A stretch of DNA of 64,000 bases. Source: Hyphomonas sp. CY54-11-8 (GTDB lineage: Bacteria; Pseudomonadota; Alphaproteobacteria; Caulobacterales; Hyphomonadaceae). Every line of letters begins with the position of its first letter. The stretch's first letter is position 1. The DNA lies in assembly GCF_000682735.1 (NCBI RefSeq), contig NZ_AWFD01000001.1, positions 62,001 to 126,000 of the forward strand. Reading direction: 5' to 3'. Positions 28,159-35,656 of this stretch are shown one piece after another. The notes under the pieces are model-generated. The model was not told where the DNA came from, did no database searches, and worked only from the letters and a program-made list of their open reading frames with translations. Both the position numbers and the translations under genes were made by a program.

Positions 28159-30720
28159 ATGAGCGATACGAAAGACACTGGTGGCAATACGGGCGGGCGC
28201 AAGCCGCTCACTGTTTCCCGCAAGACCTCGGGGACGGTGAAGCAGAGCTTCAGCCATGGCCGGTCCAAACAGGTCGTCGTGGAGACGAAGAAACGCCGGA
28301 CGGTTGGTCCGGGCGGCTCTGAGGGAGGCGGCGGCGCAGCTGCATCCGGCTCCGGTAAGGCAGAGCCTTCGCTTGAGCAGAAGCTGAAGGCGATCGCGGC
28401 CCAGCGCGGGATTACCGTGGCAGAGCTGATCGCGCAGCAGAAAGCGCTGGCTGAACGCAAGGCCCAGCAGAACGCGCGCGAGAAAGAAATCGAGAAGGAC
28501 AAGGCCGCCCAGGAGCGCCTCCGGTCCGAACAGGAGCGCAAGCTCCAGGAACAGAAAGAGCGTGAAGAGGCCGAAGCCCGCCGCAAGGCTGAGGAAGAAG
28601 CCCGCAAGGCAGCCGAAGCCGCGGAGAAAGAGCGTGCCGAGCGCGCCTCGAAACCTTCCCGTGCAAAATCGGACTTCCAGCCGGCACCCGGCGAGCCTGC
28701 TCCTGCTGAGGAAAGCGCCGGCCGCGGAAAGCGCGGCAAGTCCGGCCGTGACGACCGCAATGAGCGGCCGCGTAACGAAGCCCCGTCCCGTGGTGCACGC
28801 GGGGGCGATTCCCGCCGCCGTGGCAAGCTGACCATCACGTCTGCCCTTGGCGACGATGCCGATCGCCAGCGTTCGCTCGCGTCGGTGCGCCGGGCCCGTG
28901 AGCGTGAACGTGAGCGCCGCGGTGGTGGTGGCGGTGAGCGCGAGAAGGTCTCCGTCGAAGTCACGTTGCCTGAAACCATCACGCTGCAGGACTTGGCCGG
29001 CCGGATGAACGAGCGCGTCGCAGACGTCGTGAAGTTCATGATCCAGCAGGGCGAGATGCTGCGTGGCAACGACATCATCGATGCCGACACGGCCGAACTG
29101 ATTGCCGAGGAATTCGGCCACACCGTGAAACGTGTCTCCGAGGCCGATGTCGAAATCGGTCTGGAAGGGGTTGAGGACGATCCGAAGGATCTGGAGCCGC
29201 GCCCGCCGATCGTGACCATCATGGGCCACGTCGACCACGGCAAGACCTCGCTGCTCGACGCCTTGCGCAAGACGGACGTGGTCTCTGGCGAAGCCGGCGG
29301 CATTACCCAGCACATCGGTGCCTATCAGGTGAAACTGAAGTCGGGCGAGCGGATCACGTTCCTCGACACGCCAGGCCACGCGGCCTTCACGGCGATGCGG
29401 GCACGCGGTGCAATTGCGACCGATATTGCCATTATCGTTGTGGCGGCTGACGACTCGGTCATGCCGCAGACGATTGAATCCATCAATCACGCCAAGGCGG
29501 CCGGTGTGCCGATCATTATCGCCGTGAACAAGAGCGATCTTGAAACGGCCGACCCGAACAAGGTGCTGACAGACCTGCTGCAGCATGACGTTCAGGTTGA
29601 GAGCATGGGCGGTGAAACCCAGGCGGTTGCTGTGTCGGCCAAGACCGGCATGGGCCTTGATGAGCTGACCGACGCGATCTCGCTTCAGGCCGAACTGCTT
29701 GAGCTGAAGGCCAATCCGAACCGGGATGCTGACGGCATCGTGGTCGAAAGCCAGCTGGACAAGGGCCGCGGCCCGGTTGCGACCGTTCTGGTCAAGCGCG
29801 GCACGCTGAAGCGCGGCGATATCGTCGTCGCCGGCACCCAGTGGGGCAAGGTGCGTGCTCTGGTCGACGAGCGCGGCCAACAGCTGAAAGACGCTGGACC
29901 ATCCCAGCCGGTCGAGGTGCTTGGCCTCGATGGTGCGCCCGACCCGGGCGAGGCCTTCGTGGTTGTCGATACTGAAGCTCGCGCCCGTGAAATCACGGAT
30001 TACCGTATCCGGACGAAGCGTCAGGTCGCCGGCAAGGCCGGTGTTGCCGCACGTGCTTCGCTGGATCAGCTGCTGACCAAGCTGAAAGAGGGCGCTGTCG
30101 AAACGTCCGAACTGCCTGTCGTTGTCAAAGGCGACGTGCAGGGGTCGGTCGAAGCGATCAGCCAGTCGCTGGACAAGCTGTCGACCGAAGAAGTCCGCGC
30201 CCGCGTCATTCATGGCGCTGTCGGCGGTATTTCCGAAAGCGACGTGCTGTTGGCGAAATCGTCTGAAGCTCCGATCTTCGCGTTTAACGTCCGTGCCAAC
30301 AAACAGGCCCGCGACCTTGCGGAGAAGGAAGGCGTGGAGATCCGCTATTATTCGGTGATCTACGACCTGATCGACGATGTGAAAGCGACCCTGTCGGGCA
30401 TGCTGGCACCGGAGAAGCGTGAGACCTTCATCGGCTATGCCGAGATCCTCGAAGTCTTCAATATCACCAAGGTCGGCAAGGTCGCTGGCTGTAGGATCTC
30501 TGAAGGCAAAGTGCTTCGCGGTTGTGGTGTCCGCCTCCTGCGCGACGATGTCGTTATCCACGAAGGCAAGCTGAAGACGCTGAAGCGCTTCAAGGACGAA
30601 GTGAACGAAGTGACGGCCGGTATGGAATGCGGCATGGCGTTCGAGCGCTATGACGACATCCGGGTCGGCGACAAGATCGAATGCTTCCAGGTTGAGGAAA
30701 TCGCAAGAACGCTCGACTAG
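28159..30720 (+). CDS. infB: Translation initiation factor IF-2
   Basis: 853-residue GTPase that places initiator tRNA on the 30S subunit. The N-terminal third is a charged, low-complexity region (EKLRKEQ-like Arg, Lys, Glu runs) followed by the IF2-associated region ([20 protein letters not shown]), then the GTPase: G1 GHVDHGKT at residues 356-363, DTPGHAAF and NKSD. A beta-barrel domain, and the C-terminal initiator-tRNA domain end the protein. It is preceded by 60 bases after ylxR and followed after 11 bases by a small membrane protein gene. Confidence 0.98.
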
Positions 30721-30731
30721 TCTGGTCCTCC

Positions 30732-31259
30732 ATGACTGAGCCGCTCACCGTCACCGGTCTTCTGACCGAGAAGGATGTCAGGAAACTGACACGGCTGGCG
30801 CGTGGCGGCACAGTCGGGCCAACGGCGGTCTACTATGCCGGTGTGACGGCGCCGATCATCTCGGCCAGCATGTCGGTCCTGATGCGCAATGCCATGATCA
30901 TGGTTGGGGCCAGTCCGTATTGGCAATGGCTTGTGGCGGCCCTCGTCGCAGCCTTCGCCGGTATCGCCTGGTATCTGATCTTCATCCGGTGGTCCTACCG
31001 CCATGTTCATGGGCGCGGTACGGAAACCCGGCTGGAGACCAGCATCGCACTGGAAGAGGACAGTCTGGTCGTCCGGCGTGGCGGTATTGAAACACGCGCC
31101 GCCTGGAGCAGTGTTACGAATGTGGCAGCCACAGGCGGGCATGTTACGGTGCGGTTGGACGGGGCAGCGCCGCTGATCATCCCGAATGCCTGGTTTGGCA
31201 AGAACAAGACCGCGCGTCAGGCTTTCCTGGCCCGGCTCAATGAGAAGGTTCCATCCTGA
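30732..31259 (+). CDS. YcxB-like membrane protein
   Basis: 175-residue protein with two adjacent membrane segments (residues about 28-46 and 62-88) and a C-terminal soluble domain resembling the YcxB C-terminal domain: LEEDSLVVRRGGIETRAAW, then VTVRLDGAAPLIIPNAWFG, the pattern of an IPxxAF-type ending. It is the first of three small membrane proteins inserted in this translation operon. Its TGA overlaps the rbfA ATG by one base, so it is co-translated with rbfA. Function unknown. Confidence 0.75.
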   Translation: MTEPLTVTGLLTEKDVRKLTRLARGGTVGPTAVYYAGVTAPIISASMSVLMRNAMIMVGASPYWQWLVAALVAAFAGIAWYLIFIRWSYRHVHGRGTETRLETSIALEEDSLVVRRGGIETRAAWSSVTNVAATGGHVTVRLDGAAPLIIPNAWFGKNKTARQAFLARLNEKVPS

Positions 31260-31663
31260 TGGCCCGCAAATCCGCCCCGCCCGGCATGCCATCGCAGCGT
31301 CAGTTGCGGGCTGGTGAACTCGTGCGCCATGCCCTGACCGATATTCTCTCGCGCGAAGCCTTTCGCGACCCGGATCTGGAGCAGGTCATGATCACGGTCG
31401 GGGAAGTACGCTGCTCACCGGACCTGAAGCATGCGAACGTGTTCGTGTCTCCGCTGGGCGACGACTCCGATGAGGGCCGGACGAAACTTGCCAATGCGCT
31501 CAACCGGGCAGCCGGTTTCCTCCGTGGCCGTCTCGGCCGGGAGGTTGAACTGCGTTACACACCGGAACTGCACTTCATCGCTGACAAATCCTATGACGAC
31601 GCCACGGCGATCGACCGTCTCCTGATGGATCCGAAGGTCCGCCGGGATGTGGAAGGCGAATAG
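31259..31663 (+). CDS. rbfA: Ribosome-binding factor A
   Basis: 134-residue KH-fold factor for 16S rRNA 5'-end maturation and cold adaptation. The SQRQLRAGELVRHALTDILS opening and EVELRYTPELHFIADKSYDDATAIDRLL end match the family. ATG 31259 overlaps the preceding stop by one base. A short intergenic region with a near-perfect 14-nt palindrome follows at 31694. Confidence 0.95.
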   Translation: MARKSAPPGMPSQRQLRAGELVRHALTDILSREAFRDPDLEQVMITVGEVRCSPDLKHANVFVSPLGDDSDEGRTKLANALNRAAGFLRGRLGREVELRYTPELHFIADKSYDDATAIDRLLMDPKVRRDVEGE

Positions 31664-31693
31664 GCCTAGCTGGTCCGGTATTCTGGACCGGAT

Positions 31694-31707
31694 GTAAGTT
31701 GACTTAC
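31694..31707. promoter_or_regulatory. Palindrome with embedded TTGACT downstream of rbfA
   Basis: GTAAGT and ACTTAC (31694-31699 and 31702-31707) form a perfect 6-bp inverted repeat around TG. TTGACT (31699-31704) overlaps it and could be a -35 element for the following membrane-protein gene, but no good -10 is seen at the right distance. Confidence 0.3.
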
Positions 31708-31781
31708 TCTGGCCACATTGCCAGCATTTCATGACATGCCGAAAAGGGGCCATAGGAAGCGCCCCGGAATAGGGGCAAGTG

Positions 31782-32522
31782 ATGGATCGCCAGACGCTCG
31801 ACATGGAAGGCGCCCGCCAGGGTGAGATTTCCGCTGCCTCGCTGCAGATGGGCGATGACACGATTGCCATACAGCGCATCGCGACAATGAGTGTGGAAGC
31901 GAAAGATTTCTTTCCTTGGGACACGCCGAAGAACCGCGTGACGCAGAAGGGCTATGCCACCGCGTTCGTGTCGCTGATGTTCTTCGCGCTGATGGGCATC
32001 GGCTGGTGGGCCGTGCTGCCGGGCCGGCCATCCAGCATGGTGATGCTGGCGATCGGCGTCGTGATGCTGATCGGTGCCATGGTCTGCGGCCTGCGGGCGG
32101 GGATGATTGCGGCGAAGCTGCGGGTGAAGCAGAAATATTTCCGCCTCGTCATTGGCACGTCGGATGCGCGCCAGATCCCGTTGGTGGACGATAATCGCGA
32201 CGTGCTGTGCAAGATCCGCGATGTGGTACGCCACAAGATGGACACCGACGACCGCACGATCATGGGCGATTTTGATCTGAATCTCGACATCGTGAACCTG
32301 AAATCCCCGAACCCGTCCCCGGGCCAGCCGGACCCTGAGCCCCCGCGGGGCCGGGCTTCAGCTGTGCCGGAACGCCCGGCAGAGCCGGAACCGAAACCGC
32401 TGCCCGAGCTCGGCGATGCGGACAATGACCCGCCGCTGCCGAAGCTTGCCCGCCGGCATGATGACGACCATCAGGACGCCCTGTTCGACAAGGTGGCCGA
32501 GGCGATGAAGCCGGCCTCCTGA
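31782..32522 (+). CDS. Membrane protein, DUF6232-like
   Basis: 246-residue protein: an N-terminal soluble part (TIAIQRIATMSVEAKDF), two close membrane segments (residues about 60-78 and 81-103, with LMFFALMGIGWW), then a soluble stretch (KQKYFRLVIGTSDARQIPL, VLCKIRDVVRHKMDT) and a disordered Pro/Glu/Arg-rich C-terminus. The order short beta pattern, double helix, IxxAI-type helix resembles DUF6232, a small membrane-anchored family. ATG 31782 is preferred over GTG 31779 because GGGGC sits 6 bases upstream. Function unknown. Confidence 0.6.
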   Translation: MDRQTLDMEGARQGEISAASLQMGDDTIAIQRIATMSVEAKDFFPWDTPKNRVTQKGYATAFVSLMFFALMGIGWWAVLPGRPSSMVMLAIGVVMLIGAMVCGLRAGMIAAKLRVKQKYFRLVIGTSDARQIPLVDDNRDVLCKIRDVVRHKMDTDDRTIMGDFDLNLDIVNLKSPNPSPGQPDPEPPRGRASAVPERPAEPEPKPLPELGDADNDPPLPKLARRHDDDHQDALFDKVAEAMKPAS

Positions 32523-32640
32523 CCGGGAACACAATTCGCCCGGTTGACGGCGGGGGTCCGCCCGCTTAAGGCCCTCGCTTTCCATTCTGCCAGACCGCAT
32601 CGCGGCGTCCGATCCGCCGGCCGGTGCAAGGGAGTTGATC

Positions 32641-33576
32641 TTGGCGAGACAGCGCAAGCGCAAGGGCGATCCGGTCACCGGATGGCTGAACCTGTTCAAA
32701 CCGGTCGACATGACCTCCACTCAGGCCGTGGCGATCCTGAAGCGCCGCTACAATGCCGCGAAGGTCGGCCATGGCGGAACGCTTGATCCGCTGGCAGACG
32801 GTATCCTGCCGATTGCCTTCGGGGAGGCAACCAAGACCGTCCAGTGGGCGATGGACGCCGAGAAGGAATATGTCTTCACCATTCGCTGGGGCATTTCCAC
32901 CGCCAGCCAGGACGCGGAAGGGGAGGCGACGGCCACTTCCGATGCGCGGCCGACGCGGGATGAGGTCGAGGATGTCCTCAGGAACTATGTCGGCACGATC
33001 GAACAGGTCCCGCCGAAATACTCCGCCATCAAGGTGGACGGCCAGCGCGCCTATGACCTGGCCCGCGAGGGTGAGGATTTCGAACTGAAATCCCGCGAAG
33101 TGGACGTGTTCGAGGCTGCCGTGATCGGCATGCCGGATCCGGATCATACGGTCATTCACGTCACCTCCGGCAAGGGCTTCTATGTCCGGGCCATGGCGCG
33201 AGACCTGGCGTTCGACCTTGGCTGCGAGGGCCATATCAGCCAGCTGCGCCGCACGCGCGTCGGCAATTTCGGCGCCGCGACGGCCGTGCCGATCTCCAGA
33301 ATCGAGGAGACCGAGGACAAGGCGGCACTGCTTGCCCTGCTGCAGCCGGTCCAGGCCGTACTGGACGATATTCCCCAGCTCACCATCACCCGCGACGAGG
33401 CCGCCAATGTGCGCCAGGGCCGCGAGATCCAGCTGATGCCCCATCTTGTGGAACAGTGGCGGGTCGAGCGCGTGGACGATGACCGCTCCGCCCTCGTCAT
33501 CTGCGATGGCCACGCCGTGGCGATGGGAGAGGTGCGTGCCGGGCGGTTTGAGCCGGCCCGCGTATTCGTAGCGTAA
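32641..33576 (+). CDS. truB: tRNA pseudouridine(55) synthase
   Basis: 311-residue enzyme that makes pseudouridine 55 in the tRNA T loop. The catalytic motif HGGTLDPLADG places D49 as nucleophile, matching D48 of the E. coli enzyme. It starts at an unusual TTG (32641), chosen because GGGAG is 7 bases upstream and the protein then begins MARQRKRKGDPVTGWL, the expected opening. The N-terminal Arg/Lys-rich segment is typical. In most alphaproteobacteria rpsO follows directly; here it is over 2 kb away. Confidence 0.95.
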   Translation: MARQRKRKGDPVTGWLNLFKPVDMTSTQAVAILKRRYNAAKVGHGGTLDPLADGILPIAFGEATKTVQWAMDAEKEYVFTIRWGISTASQDAEGEATATSDARPTRDEVEDVLRNYVGTIEQVPPKYSAIKVDGQRAYDLAREGEDFELKSREVDVFEAAVIGMPDPDHTVIHVTSGKGFYVRAMARDLAFDLGCEGHISQLRRTRVGNFGAATAVPISRIEETEDKAALLALLQPVQAVLDDIPQLTITRDEAANVRQGREIQLMPHLVEQWRVERVDDDRSALVICDGHAVAMGEVRAGRFEPARVFVA

Positions 33577-33628
33577 TTTTTCACGTCGCCTCCACCGGAT
33601 TTTAAACCTGATCCCCCATACAGGCGTG

Positions 33629-34132
33629 ATGGATTTCGTGGAAATCTTCGCGCGCTTTTATGCCCTCGGGTTCGGCCTCGTCGTTGGCGGCGGGGCGCTG
33701 GCCATTGTCATCTGGCGCGACAGCTGGCGCTGGCGCCAACTGGCGGAGGCCTATGAATCCGCCGCCGAGCCGGAAGGTCCGCGCAAGCGTTTCAGCACGG
33801 TGATCCTGCATGGCCGGGGCGTTGCCTATAATTCCTACCACTCCATGGTGACGCTTCATGTGGACCGGAAAGGTATCTGGCTGCTGTTCCGACCCTTCCT
33901 GCTGAACATTCCAATCTTCAAGCCGCTCTACATTCCGTTTGCCGACCTTCAGGCCACGCCGCAGAGCTGGATGCTGATCCACAGGACGGTGGAGCTCGAA
34001 ACCGGAAAAACGCCGGGCCTCAAGATCGTGGTCTGGCAGCGCACTGCCGACTGGATCGACGAGCAGAGCGGCGGCCGCCTCGGCCTCTTTTCCCGGCAGG
34101 CGAGCCGCATGGCCGCCAGCTGGCCGAACTGA
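33629..34132 (+). CDS. Membrane-anchored protein of unknown function, possible PH-like domain
   Basis: 167-residue protein with one N-terminal membrane helix (FALGFGLVVGGGALAIVIW, residues about 10-30) and a C-terminal soluble domain of beta strands ending in a helix: HSMVTLHVDRKGIWLLFRPF, PLYIPFADL, IHRTVELE, LKIVVWQRTADWI. The strand-strand-IPFxDL pattern recalls bacterial PH-like domains, an inference from pattern only. ATG 33629 is one codon after an in-frame GTG at 33626. It is the third small membrane protein in the infB-to-truB neighbourhood. Confidence 0.6.
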   Translation: MDFVEIFARFYALGFGLVVGGGALAIVIWRDSWRWRQLAEAYESAAEPEGPRKRFSTVILHGRGVAYNSYHSMVTLHVDRKGIWLLFRPFLLNIPIFKPLYIPFADLQATPQSWMLIHRTVELETGKTPGLKIVVWQRTADWIDEQSGGRLGLFSRQASRMAASWPN

Positions 34133-34154: not shown

Positions 34155-35195
34155 CTAGAGCGTCGCCATGTCGATCACGAAGCGGTACTTCACATCGCTG
34201 GCGACGACGCGGTCATACGCTTCGTTGATGTCCTTCATGGCGATCACTTCCACATCGCAGGTTATGTCATGCTCGGCGCAGAAATCGAGCATCTCCTGCG
34301 TCTCTTCGAGACCGCCGATGCCGGAACCCGCAATGCGCCGCCGGTTGGCCAGCAAGAGGCCGCCATGCATCTCTTCCAGCGGTTCGATCGCGCCGACGAT
34401 CACCATCGTGCCGTTGCGGGCGAGGAGGCCCAGATAGGGGTTCAGGTCGTGCTTCACCGGCACGGTGTTCAGCAGGAAATCGAAGCTGCCCAGATGCGCC
34501 TTCATCTGTGCCCGGTCTTTCGAGACCAGCACATCGCTGACGCCGAGGCGGCGCGCATCCTCTCCCTTTTCGGGTGAGGTGGTGATCATCACGACTTCTG
34601 CGCCGAGGGCGACGGCGAACTTGATGCCCATATGGCCGAGGCCGCCGAGGCCAATGACGCCCACCTTGTCGCCCTTGCCGATATTCCAGTGCTTCAGCGG
34701 CGACCAGCTGGTGATCCCGGCGCAGAGCAGGGGGGCGACCTTTTCCGGCGGCAGTTTCTCAGACACTTTCAGCACGAATTCCTGGCGCACCACGATCTGG
34801 CGGGAATAGCCGCCAAAGGTCGGTCCGCCGATCACGGGCTCCGTGCCGCCATAGGTGCCGACCATGCCTTTCTCGCAATATTGTTCGTCCCCGTCATGAC
34901 AGGCCGGACAGGCAAGGCAGGCATCCACCATGCAGCCGACGCCGACGAGATCGCCCACCTTGTGCTGCGTCACGTCCGGGCCGATCTCGCTGACCCGGCC
35001 GATGATCTCGTGCCCCGGCACGAAGGGATAGCGCGAGCGGCCCCATTCATTGCGCGCGGCATGGATGTCGCTGTGGCAGACGCCGCAATGCGTGATGTCG
35101 ATCAGAACATCGTTCGACTGCAGGTCGCGGCGCGTGATCTCGAACGGTTTCAGCGCCTCCGTGGCGCCCTCTGTTGCGTATGCGTGAACCTGCAT
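34155..35195 (-). CDS. Zinc-dependent alcohol dehydrogenase (cinnamyl-type)
   Basis: 346-residue NAD(P)-dependent medium-chain dehydrogenase. Catalytic zinc ligands C37 and H62 are in HCGVC and PGHE, and the four structural zinc cysteines C93, C96, C99 and C107 are all present. The Rossmann motif GLGGLGHMG is at about residue 182. The protein resembles cinnamyl alcohol dehydrogenases and YahK-type aldehyde reductases, with preference for NADPH likely but not shown. It is on the opposite strand to its neighbours and is an insertion relative to the usual truB-rpsO order. Confidence 0.92.
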   Translation of the reverse strand: MQVHAYATEGATEALKPFEITRRDLQSNDVLIDITHCGVCHSDIHAARNEWGRSRYPFVPGHEIIGRVSEIGPDVTQHKVGDLVGVGCMVDACLACPACHDGDEQYCEKGMVGTYGGTEPVIGGPTFGGYSRQIVVRQEFVLKVSEKLPPEKVAPLLCAGITSWSPLKHWNIGKGDKVGVIGLGGLGHMGIKFAVALGAEVVMITTSPEKGEDARRLGVSDVLVSKDRAQMKAHLGSFDFLLNTVPVKHDLNPYLGLLARNGTMVIVGAIEPLEEMHGGLLLANRRRIAGSGIGGLEETQEMLDFCAEHDITCDVEVIAMKDINEAYDRVVASDVKYRFVIDMATL

Positions 35196-35251
35196 GATGT
35201 GCCTCCCTTTATCGTTAGAAGCATTTCACCGGAGCGGGGCCTTGTCCATGC

Positions 35252-35656
35252 GTGCCGGTGCGGGAGGCGGGCCCAGCGCTGAGAGCCGGACTGGCATCGG
35301 CCATCCGGTTACGGGTCGATATTTGCTCCTCACTTGTCGGACACACGTGGATTGCTTTGTTTGACGGACAGCCACAAGAAGTATTGGACGCTTGTGCCGC
35401 GCTCGCATCACTCGAACCGCAGTACTTAGGTGAATTTGATACTCGTATAGCGTTGGTGAATTGGGCTCATGCACAAACGCTTCTTGGAAATGATGCCCAA
35501 GCAAACCAAGTTTATATTGCTTTTGCTGATGGCGATTATGGGTCTGAGGTTCGTTGGCCGGAAGTTATTGTCGAGGATTTCCGAATCCTGCGGGCCGCTG
35601 GCTACGTCCATCGAAACATGGACTTCATTTTGGCGATTATAGGAGCTCCGGAATAG
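35252..35656 (+). pseudogene. AT-rich open frame, probable gene remnant
   Basis: The reading frame gives 134 residues from a GTG, but only the part after about residue 24 (around 35320) looks like real protein sequence (HTWIALFDGQPQEVLD, then YVHRNMDFILAII). Third-position use is A/T-rich (tta, ata, gat, caa, gtt), unlike the high-GC neighbours. I recognise no domain, though the EVLDACAALASLEPQYLGEFDT stretch is helical and TPR-like in appearance. The most likely reading is the 3' part of a transferred gene that lost its 5' end, joined to local DNA. Start is undetermined; expression unknown. Confidence 0.4.

Follow-up and report, generated by a model that had tools for sequence, protein, structure and literature searches.

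A YcxB-like gene with a predicted membrane hairpin and PH fold is held between infB and rbfA in much of the Hyphomonadaceae

The window analysed here is a stretch of 64,000 nucleotides from Hyphomonas sp. CY54-11-8, and all coordinates count from its first letter. Our main subject is gene A, a small membrane-protein gene which, together with two others (B and C), lies among ribosome-related genes on the forward strand in the order rimP, nusA, ylxR, infB, gene A, rbfA, gene B, truB, gene C (Table 1); downstream of gene C come an alcohol-dehydrogenase-like gene on the opposite strand and then rpsO and pnp. The names of these neighbours are those we take them to have. An earlier reading of the letters, here called the sequence-only reading, had described three open reading frames (ORFs) inserted in the infB-rbfA-truB operon, each encoding one or two membrane helices. 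The three ORFs are indeed present and co-directional, with coordinates correct to within a start codon (alternative GTG starts lie at 31779 for gene B and 33626 for gene C), and models gave A and B a hairpin of two transmembrane (TM) helices each; in C, inspection of the translation by eye showed a single hydrophobic stretch. Genes A and B do lie within the operon, but C follows truB and is strictly outside it. Scans of the window for tRNAs and for Rfam families at the gathering score found none, promoter and terminator scans gave about the same counts as in shuffled sequence, and PADLOC returned no match.

Table 1. Genes at the infB-truB locus, numbered from the first letter of the window
Feature	Position	Strand	Basis
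infB (translation initiation factor IF-2)	28159..30720	+	853-amino-acid (aa) ORF; syntenic matches in relatives; name presumed
Gene A, YcxB-like, 175 aa	30732..31259	+	Pfam matches of the family, AlphaFold2 model, purifying selection, synteny
rbfA (30S maturation factor), name presumed	31259..31663	+	start codon shares one base with the stop of A
Gene B, DUF6232-like, 246 aa	31782..32522	+	between rbfA and truB; 15/15 family members match DUF6232; AlphaFold2 model
truB (tRNA pseudouridine synthase)	32635..33576	+	ORF; matched in 117/120 relatives; name presumed
Gene C, one-TM protein, 167 aa, without Pfam family	33629..34132	+	3' of truB

To determine the family of gene A, its product was compared with Pfam, where it matched YcxB (PF14317) over residues 108-166 at 20.5 bits (E 4e-4), below the curated whole-protein cut-off of 23.3 bits. 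A six-frame scan gave 22.5 bits for the window copy, with 23.8 and 21.2 bits for copies in two genomes of the same genus (G018 and G006), and 25 of the 26 members of the A family, the window copy included, matched YcxB with E values up to 0.1 and a best of 1.9e-9. Eight of the 26 also matched bPH_6, and a weak match of A itself to DUF2244 (E 0.026) fell below its cut-off. Since the window copy lies below the curated cut-off, gene A is best called YcxB-like rather than a filed member of PF14317. Searches of NCBIfam returned for A and B only weak matches far below the cut-offs and for C none, and searches of PDB by sequence gave no credible match to any of the three proteins, the lowest E value (0.0019) belonging to a 19-residue match of C to an engineered repeat protein. 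In the genome of CY54-11-8 itself, bPH_2 (PF03703) had no match, and a search for a second copy of A gave a sole match of 13.6 bits (E 0.06).

An AlphaFold2 model of A, built from 59 sequences, reached a mean predicted local distance difference test score (pLDDT) of 81.9 and a predicted template modelling score of 0.59. In the model a strand (residues 5-10) and a helix (13-23) precede two TM helices (30-57 and 62-89), and the C-terminal part contains six strands (between residues 102 and 151) followed by a helix (159-172), forming a predicted PH-fold domain of about residues 101-172. A second-look structural aligner placed PH-type chains first, led by Rtt106 (Z 9.3, root-mean-square deviation (rmsd) 2.4, 80 residues aligned) and with the Shewanella PH domain 3hsa close to it (Z 9.1, rmsd 2.5, 80 aligned). 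Rows 1-31 of its results were all PH-, FERM- or FACT/Rtt106-type chains, as judged by title or presumed by us, and included the bacterial PH domains 3hsa and 3dcx. The model therefore supports a membrane protein with a PH fold, that is, a beta sandwich with a C-terminal helix cap. The leading aligned ranges begin at residues 1-5; as far as such ranges indicate, the strand at the N-terminus seems to be part of the sheet and to form the first strand of the PH domain, which the hairpin would then interrupt. Lysine and arginine number five before the first TM helix, none in the loop and four after the second, and this charge distribution favours a topology in which both ends are inside and the PH domain is cytosolic. 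Measured as the majority fraction, conservation was 0.68 in the first TM helix, 0.75 in the second and 0.54 in the PH part, the reverse of what was seen in gene B, and residues G29 P30 and Y34-Y35-A36-G37 at the first helix were invariant across the 59 aligned sequences. The ratio of nonsynonymous to synonymous substitution rates (dN/dS) of A was 0.09-0.18 against eight relatives, showing purifying selection.

The placement of gene A was followed first among 120 genomes of relatives, of which 54, in seven of 31 genera, matched the A profile, all inside its own family. Of 53 genome regions holding A, all contained rbfA and 52 contained infB, the exception being a region that starts inside A. 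In 62 loci from public genomes, which overlap partly with the 53 regions as some genomes are the same, A lay after infB in every case, and rbfA followed downstream in 61, the remaining locus ending at A. These loci are labelled as Hyphomonas, Henriciella, Ponticaulis, Hirschia and further Hyphomonadaceae, with a few under other labels (Alphaproteobacteria, Rhodobacterales, Acidobacteria). With rbfA starts in relatives assigned by nearness to the start of rbfA in the window, the stop of A overlapped the start of rbfA in 46 of the 61 loci (median distance -1) and was no more than 60 bases away in 54; gaps of 91-785 bases separated them in the remaining seven, from Ponticaulis and two further Hyphomonadaceae, and an extra gene was found in the gap in all four that were looked into. 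Within Hyphomonas, A was present in 31 of 42 genomes; two of the 11 without it also had no match to rbfA or truB, leaving 40 genomes that can be scored. The reality of gene A, its position, its stop-start overlap and its distribution are direct observations, and they show a gene held in one slot over long times that can yet be missing. The sequence-only reading had also offered a lineage-specific function and a synteny search in related genomes, and among close relatives the distribution is indeed lineage-specific: strong matches to A are confined to its own family and those to B to Hyphomonas and one further genus, and neither gene occurs in this strain only. Gene C is at its place in only three genomes.

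Other families were then searched for YcxB-like genes in this slot. Across the order, the A profile, which was built from slot members and favours them, matched 80 of 398 genomes, 11 of them outside the Hyphomonadaceae. Seven of these 11 carry a YcxB-like gene beside infB, rbfA or both: immediately upstream of rbfA in G223, G173, G187 and G240, and immediately after infB in G125, G191 and G254 (in G254 as two genes in tandem), with rbfA on another contig in the latter three. The other four (G129, G159, G243 and G276) had neither infB nor rbfA within 9-10 kb around the match. A tandem pair of divergent YcxB-like genes stands right after infB at L228:2792-3913, in family f5. When seven slot proteins, from those genomes and from locus L243, were compared with Pfam, six matched YcxB, five of them above the cut-off (24.7-41.1 bits) and one at 20.7 bits, and the L243 protein did not match. 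Weighing against this, the starting A profile detected a slot gene in none of 46 non-family loci chosen only for holding truB, 37 of which contain both infB and rbfA, and two emerged on closer look. One, at L245:2792-3337 on the minus strand (family f4), is a two-TM YcxB-like gene right after infB that scored 34.6 bits against the cut-off of 23.3; its longest ORF begins inside infB through an early start codon only, and the portion beyond infB is the YcxB-like one. The other, in L243 (family f2), matched neither Pfam nor the starting A profile, and its score in the iterated search is no test, this search being partly circular in that its A7 profile includes L243. A class-wide scan found YcxB in 10 of 387 genomes: three are Hyphomonas with the gene in the slot, one (G503) is from outside the order, with the gene flanked by infB and rbfA, and in the remaining six the YcxB gene and rbfA are on different contigs. 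A YcxB-like slot gene occurs in one or more genomes of every family code from f1 to f5; divergent ones stand next to infB, rbfA or both in a few genomes of each of the four other families of the order that were examined, most of whose genomes have none. By rough judgement rather than by calculation, YcxB-like genes recur beside infB or rbfA much more often than if they were scattered among some thousands of genes. In a tree of 18 slot and eight non-slot proteins, which did not include L245, four changes of label were required, two of them forced by starred branches, and branches were long; a single origin of the slot genes was considered, and the tree does not decide between it and repeated entry.

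These results bear on the suggestion of the sequence-only reading that translation might be anchored at the membrane. In the fuller form of this suggestion, the PH domain of A would tether ribosome assembly or initiation (RbfA, the 30S subunit, IF-2) to the inner membrane, making A a membrane anchor. The family-wide slot and the stop-start overlap with rbfA would suit such a role, as would the YcxB-like genes beside infB or rbfA in seven of 11 non-family genomes, in L245 and in one genome outside the order. However, A is missing from nine of the 40 scorable Hyphomonas genomes, in G125, G191 and G254 the gene adjoins infB but is on a different contig from rbfA, and the truB-chosen loci gave no match to the starting profile, with only L245 and L243 emerging later. 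The gaps of the operon also take unrelated genes in relatives; we consider an anchor of this kind quite improbable. Similarly little credence is given to the version in which an old PH-fold inner-membrane protein, encoded between infB and rbfA and in Hyphomonadaceae co-translated with RbfA, would give late 30S maturation or initiation a place to dock at the membrane, while divergent versions would survive next to infB or rbfA in a scatter of genomes from the order's other examined families and from one family beyond the order.

Gene B occupies the next gap. Its window copy scored 19.5 bits against DUF6232 (PF19744), under the cut-off of 27.4, and all 15 B-family members matched this family (best E 1.8e-10). 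The assignments of A as YcxB-like and B as DUF6232-like made earlier are thus upheld for the families (25 of 26 and 15 of 15), but the window copies themselves stay under the Pfam cut-offs. Gene B was present in 40 of 42 Hyphomonas genomes, the remaining two also lacking matches to rbfA and truB, and outside Hyphomonas it was found among the 120 relatives in three genomes of one further genus only; it lies between rbfA and truB in Hyphomonas, and in the further genus truB is elsewhere. Its dN/dS was 0.06-0.32 against eight relatives, and genes A and B both behave as real genes. The AlphaFold2 model of B (mean pLDDT 69.3) places four strands at residues 13-43, TM helices at 49-78 and 83-113, and two strands at 117-136, followed by a helix (139-155), a short hairpin and a low-confidence tail. 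Conservation was higher in the non-membrane parts (majority fraction 0.84-0.85) than in the helices (0.64-0.67). The fold search was filled by matches to the TM hairpin; at rank 39 stood the MTMR6 chain 2yf0 (Z 7.9, rmsd 3.1, 74 aligned, residues 3-154), presumably a PH-GRAM-bearing chain. It is plausible from the model that the beta part of B is a PH-like domain split by the membrane hairpin. Of the PH folds proposed earlier, that of A is supported by its model, and that of B is only suggested.

Gene C is a patchy gene in the variable stretch between truB and rpsO. It was matched in 15 of the 120 relatives, at the window's place in three (its own genome, G004 with 77% identity and G026 with 47% identity) and elsewhere in 12, and a seven-row C profile matched three of 289 genomes of the class, its own included. 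Pfam gave no family for seven members and two further ones, and dN/dS was 0.33 and 0.60 against the only two relatives at the window's place. The adjoining stretch at 34155-35656 varies among Hyphomonas genomes, where it holds the alcohol-dehydrogenase-like gene, small ORFs or other genes, and is a plastic spot downstream of truB. Separately, one genome of another family, G480 (loci L278, L286 and L288), carries one YcxB-like gene as well as two genes related to gene C, all at separate places. Comparison of the A, B and C profiles by hhalign gave probabilities of 0.1, 1.3 and 4.5 percent; given these values and their differing distributions, the idea that the three form one set of related PH proteins is rejected at the level of sequence. 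The earlier view of the three genes as one unusual set is accordingly not supported, their phyletic depths being unequal and C being so rarely at its place, although B or C could still be related to A at the level of fold.

Other genes also occupy these gaps. Between rbfA and B, the sister genomes L081 and L033 hold what we take to be a GGDEF or GGDEF/EAL-type protein from its motifs, and gaps of 1.9-2.0 kb were seen at this place in G004, G006, G018 and G032; other genes stand between rbfA and truB in some relatives. Between A and rbfA, Ponticaulis-type genomes have a presumably peptidase-like gene or another gene, L117:4534-5208 and L123:4361-5077 encode a product with MCGRFF near its start, which we presume to be SRAP/YedK-like, and L144 and L145 hold a different gene. 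In other families, genes that we take to be lipoprotein-like lie between infB and the YcxB-like slot gene in L227 and L229 (family f3, reverse strand of the loci) and in the gap of L259 and L273, which have no YcxB-like candidate, and many other gaps among the 46 truB-chosen loci are filled by lipoprotein-like or other genes. Since the gaps take in other genes, claims made from position alone have to be tempered, and because extra genes in the operon are common in relatives, insertion among ribosome genes is by itself weak evidence; the lasting placement of A together with its stop-start overlap with rbfA is stronger evidence than insertion alone. A, B and C could, then, be unrelated passengers of a permissive operon, kept for constitutive expression, so that position would say nothing of function. 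The unrelated genes in the same gaps of relatives, the patchiness of C and the lack of any sequence relation found among the three genes all agree with this. Against it stand the constant position of A in seven genera and the reappearance of YcxB-like genes at the same position in other families, despite their rarity in the class (10 of 387 genomes). We regard the passenger reading as rather unlikely, though worth keeping in mind.

We assign a probability of roughly 0.6 to the reading that A is an inner-membrane PH scaffold or oligomer, vertically inherited and probably co-translated with rbfA. Gene A would encode a two-helix inner-membrane protein whose PH domain, judging from the charges, faces the cytosol, and it would have been inherited vertically in the infB-rbfA slot through much of the Hyphomonadaceae, with its translation probably coupled to that of rbfA. 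The protein may act as a membrane-embedded scaffold or oligomer, in which the membrane hairpin, its best conserved part, would do the main work and the PH domain, on the cytosolic face, would serve for self-assembly or for binding other proteins; the operon would supply it with steady, growth-linked expression. In the neighbouring gap, gene B would be another membrane protein, independent of A and distributed at genus level, and C would be a patchily distributed extra gene. Several points weigh against the scaffold reading. The scaffold or oligomer function is one that we infer, and a conserved position can result from expression or from lack of rearrangement, without functional linkage. The hairpin of A alone resembles MscS (Z 8.5, rows 32-34 of the second-look results), which may be a mere common arrangement, and the best Foldseek E value for A was 1.1e-3 (a FERM domain), none reaching 0.001. 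In the nine of 40 scorable Hyphomonas genomes without A, the aligned ends of infB and rbfA are 12-15 bases apart; on an RbfA-TruB tree of 43 genomes these absences need three changes, two of them forced by starred branches, and since A is absent from these nine genomes it is dispensable.

To our knowledge, almost no function is known for bacterial PH-fold membrane proteins, and a family-wide operon link to rbfA provides a testable partner for one of them. A functional link would put a step of ribosome maturation at the membrane; without one, the locus would be a clear case of a conserved operon acquiring and retaining membrane-protein genes. In the literature searched, we found no mention of the infB-A-rbfA arrangement and nothing on DUF6232. 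Judged by title, the search on the rbfA/infB/truB operon in Alphaproteobacteria gave only a species description, and among the matches listed there was no title on the function of YcxB, nothing relevant on bPH domains, membranes and YcxB together, and no gene-essentiality study for Hyphomonas neptunium and transposons.

A comparison with known systems shows what A and B share with them. In Bacillus, YlxP (DUF503) sits between infB and rbfA; it is presumably small and conserved and shares this operon position with A, but we take it to be a soluble protein of another family. Gene A resembles the YcxB family in being a two-TM protein with a C-terminal domain matched at residues 108-166, and differs from it in the sub-threshold score of the window copy, the infB-rbfA slot and the invariant residues at the first helix. 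The function of YcxB is called uncharacterised in the available portion of one report (PMC8112048). Gene B is like DUF6232 in that the match covers sequence on either side of the TM hairpin, and unlike it in the low score of the window copy, an extra C-terminal tail and its place between rbfA and truB. The bacterial families DUF2244 and DUF1200 have two TM helices and predicted intracellular PH-like domains and, in the accessible part of their description, are proposed to form membrane-bound oligomers (Xu et al., 2010; PMC2817789). Gene A is like them in its two TM helices and predicted PH-like domain, as well as in its weak DUF2244 match; they are said in the same part to be without strand beta1 (PMC2817789). 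In A, by contrast, a strand seems to precede the hairpin at the N-terminus. Two PH-domain membrane proteins of Enterococcus have been linked to bacteriocin export, according to the portion of that report available (PMC8657885). Gene A fits this general kind of bacterial PH-domain membrane protein (PMC2817789; PMC8657885).

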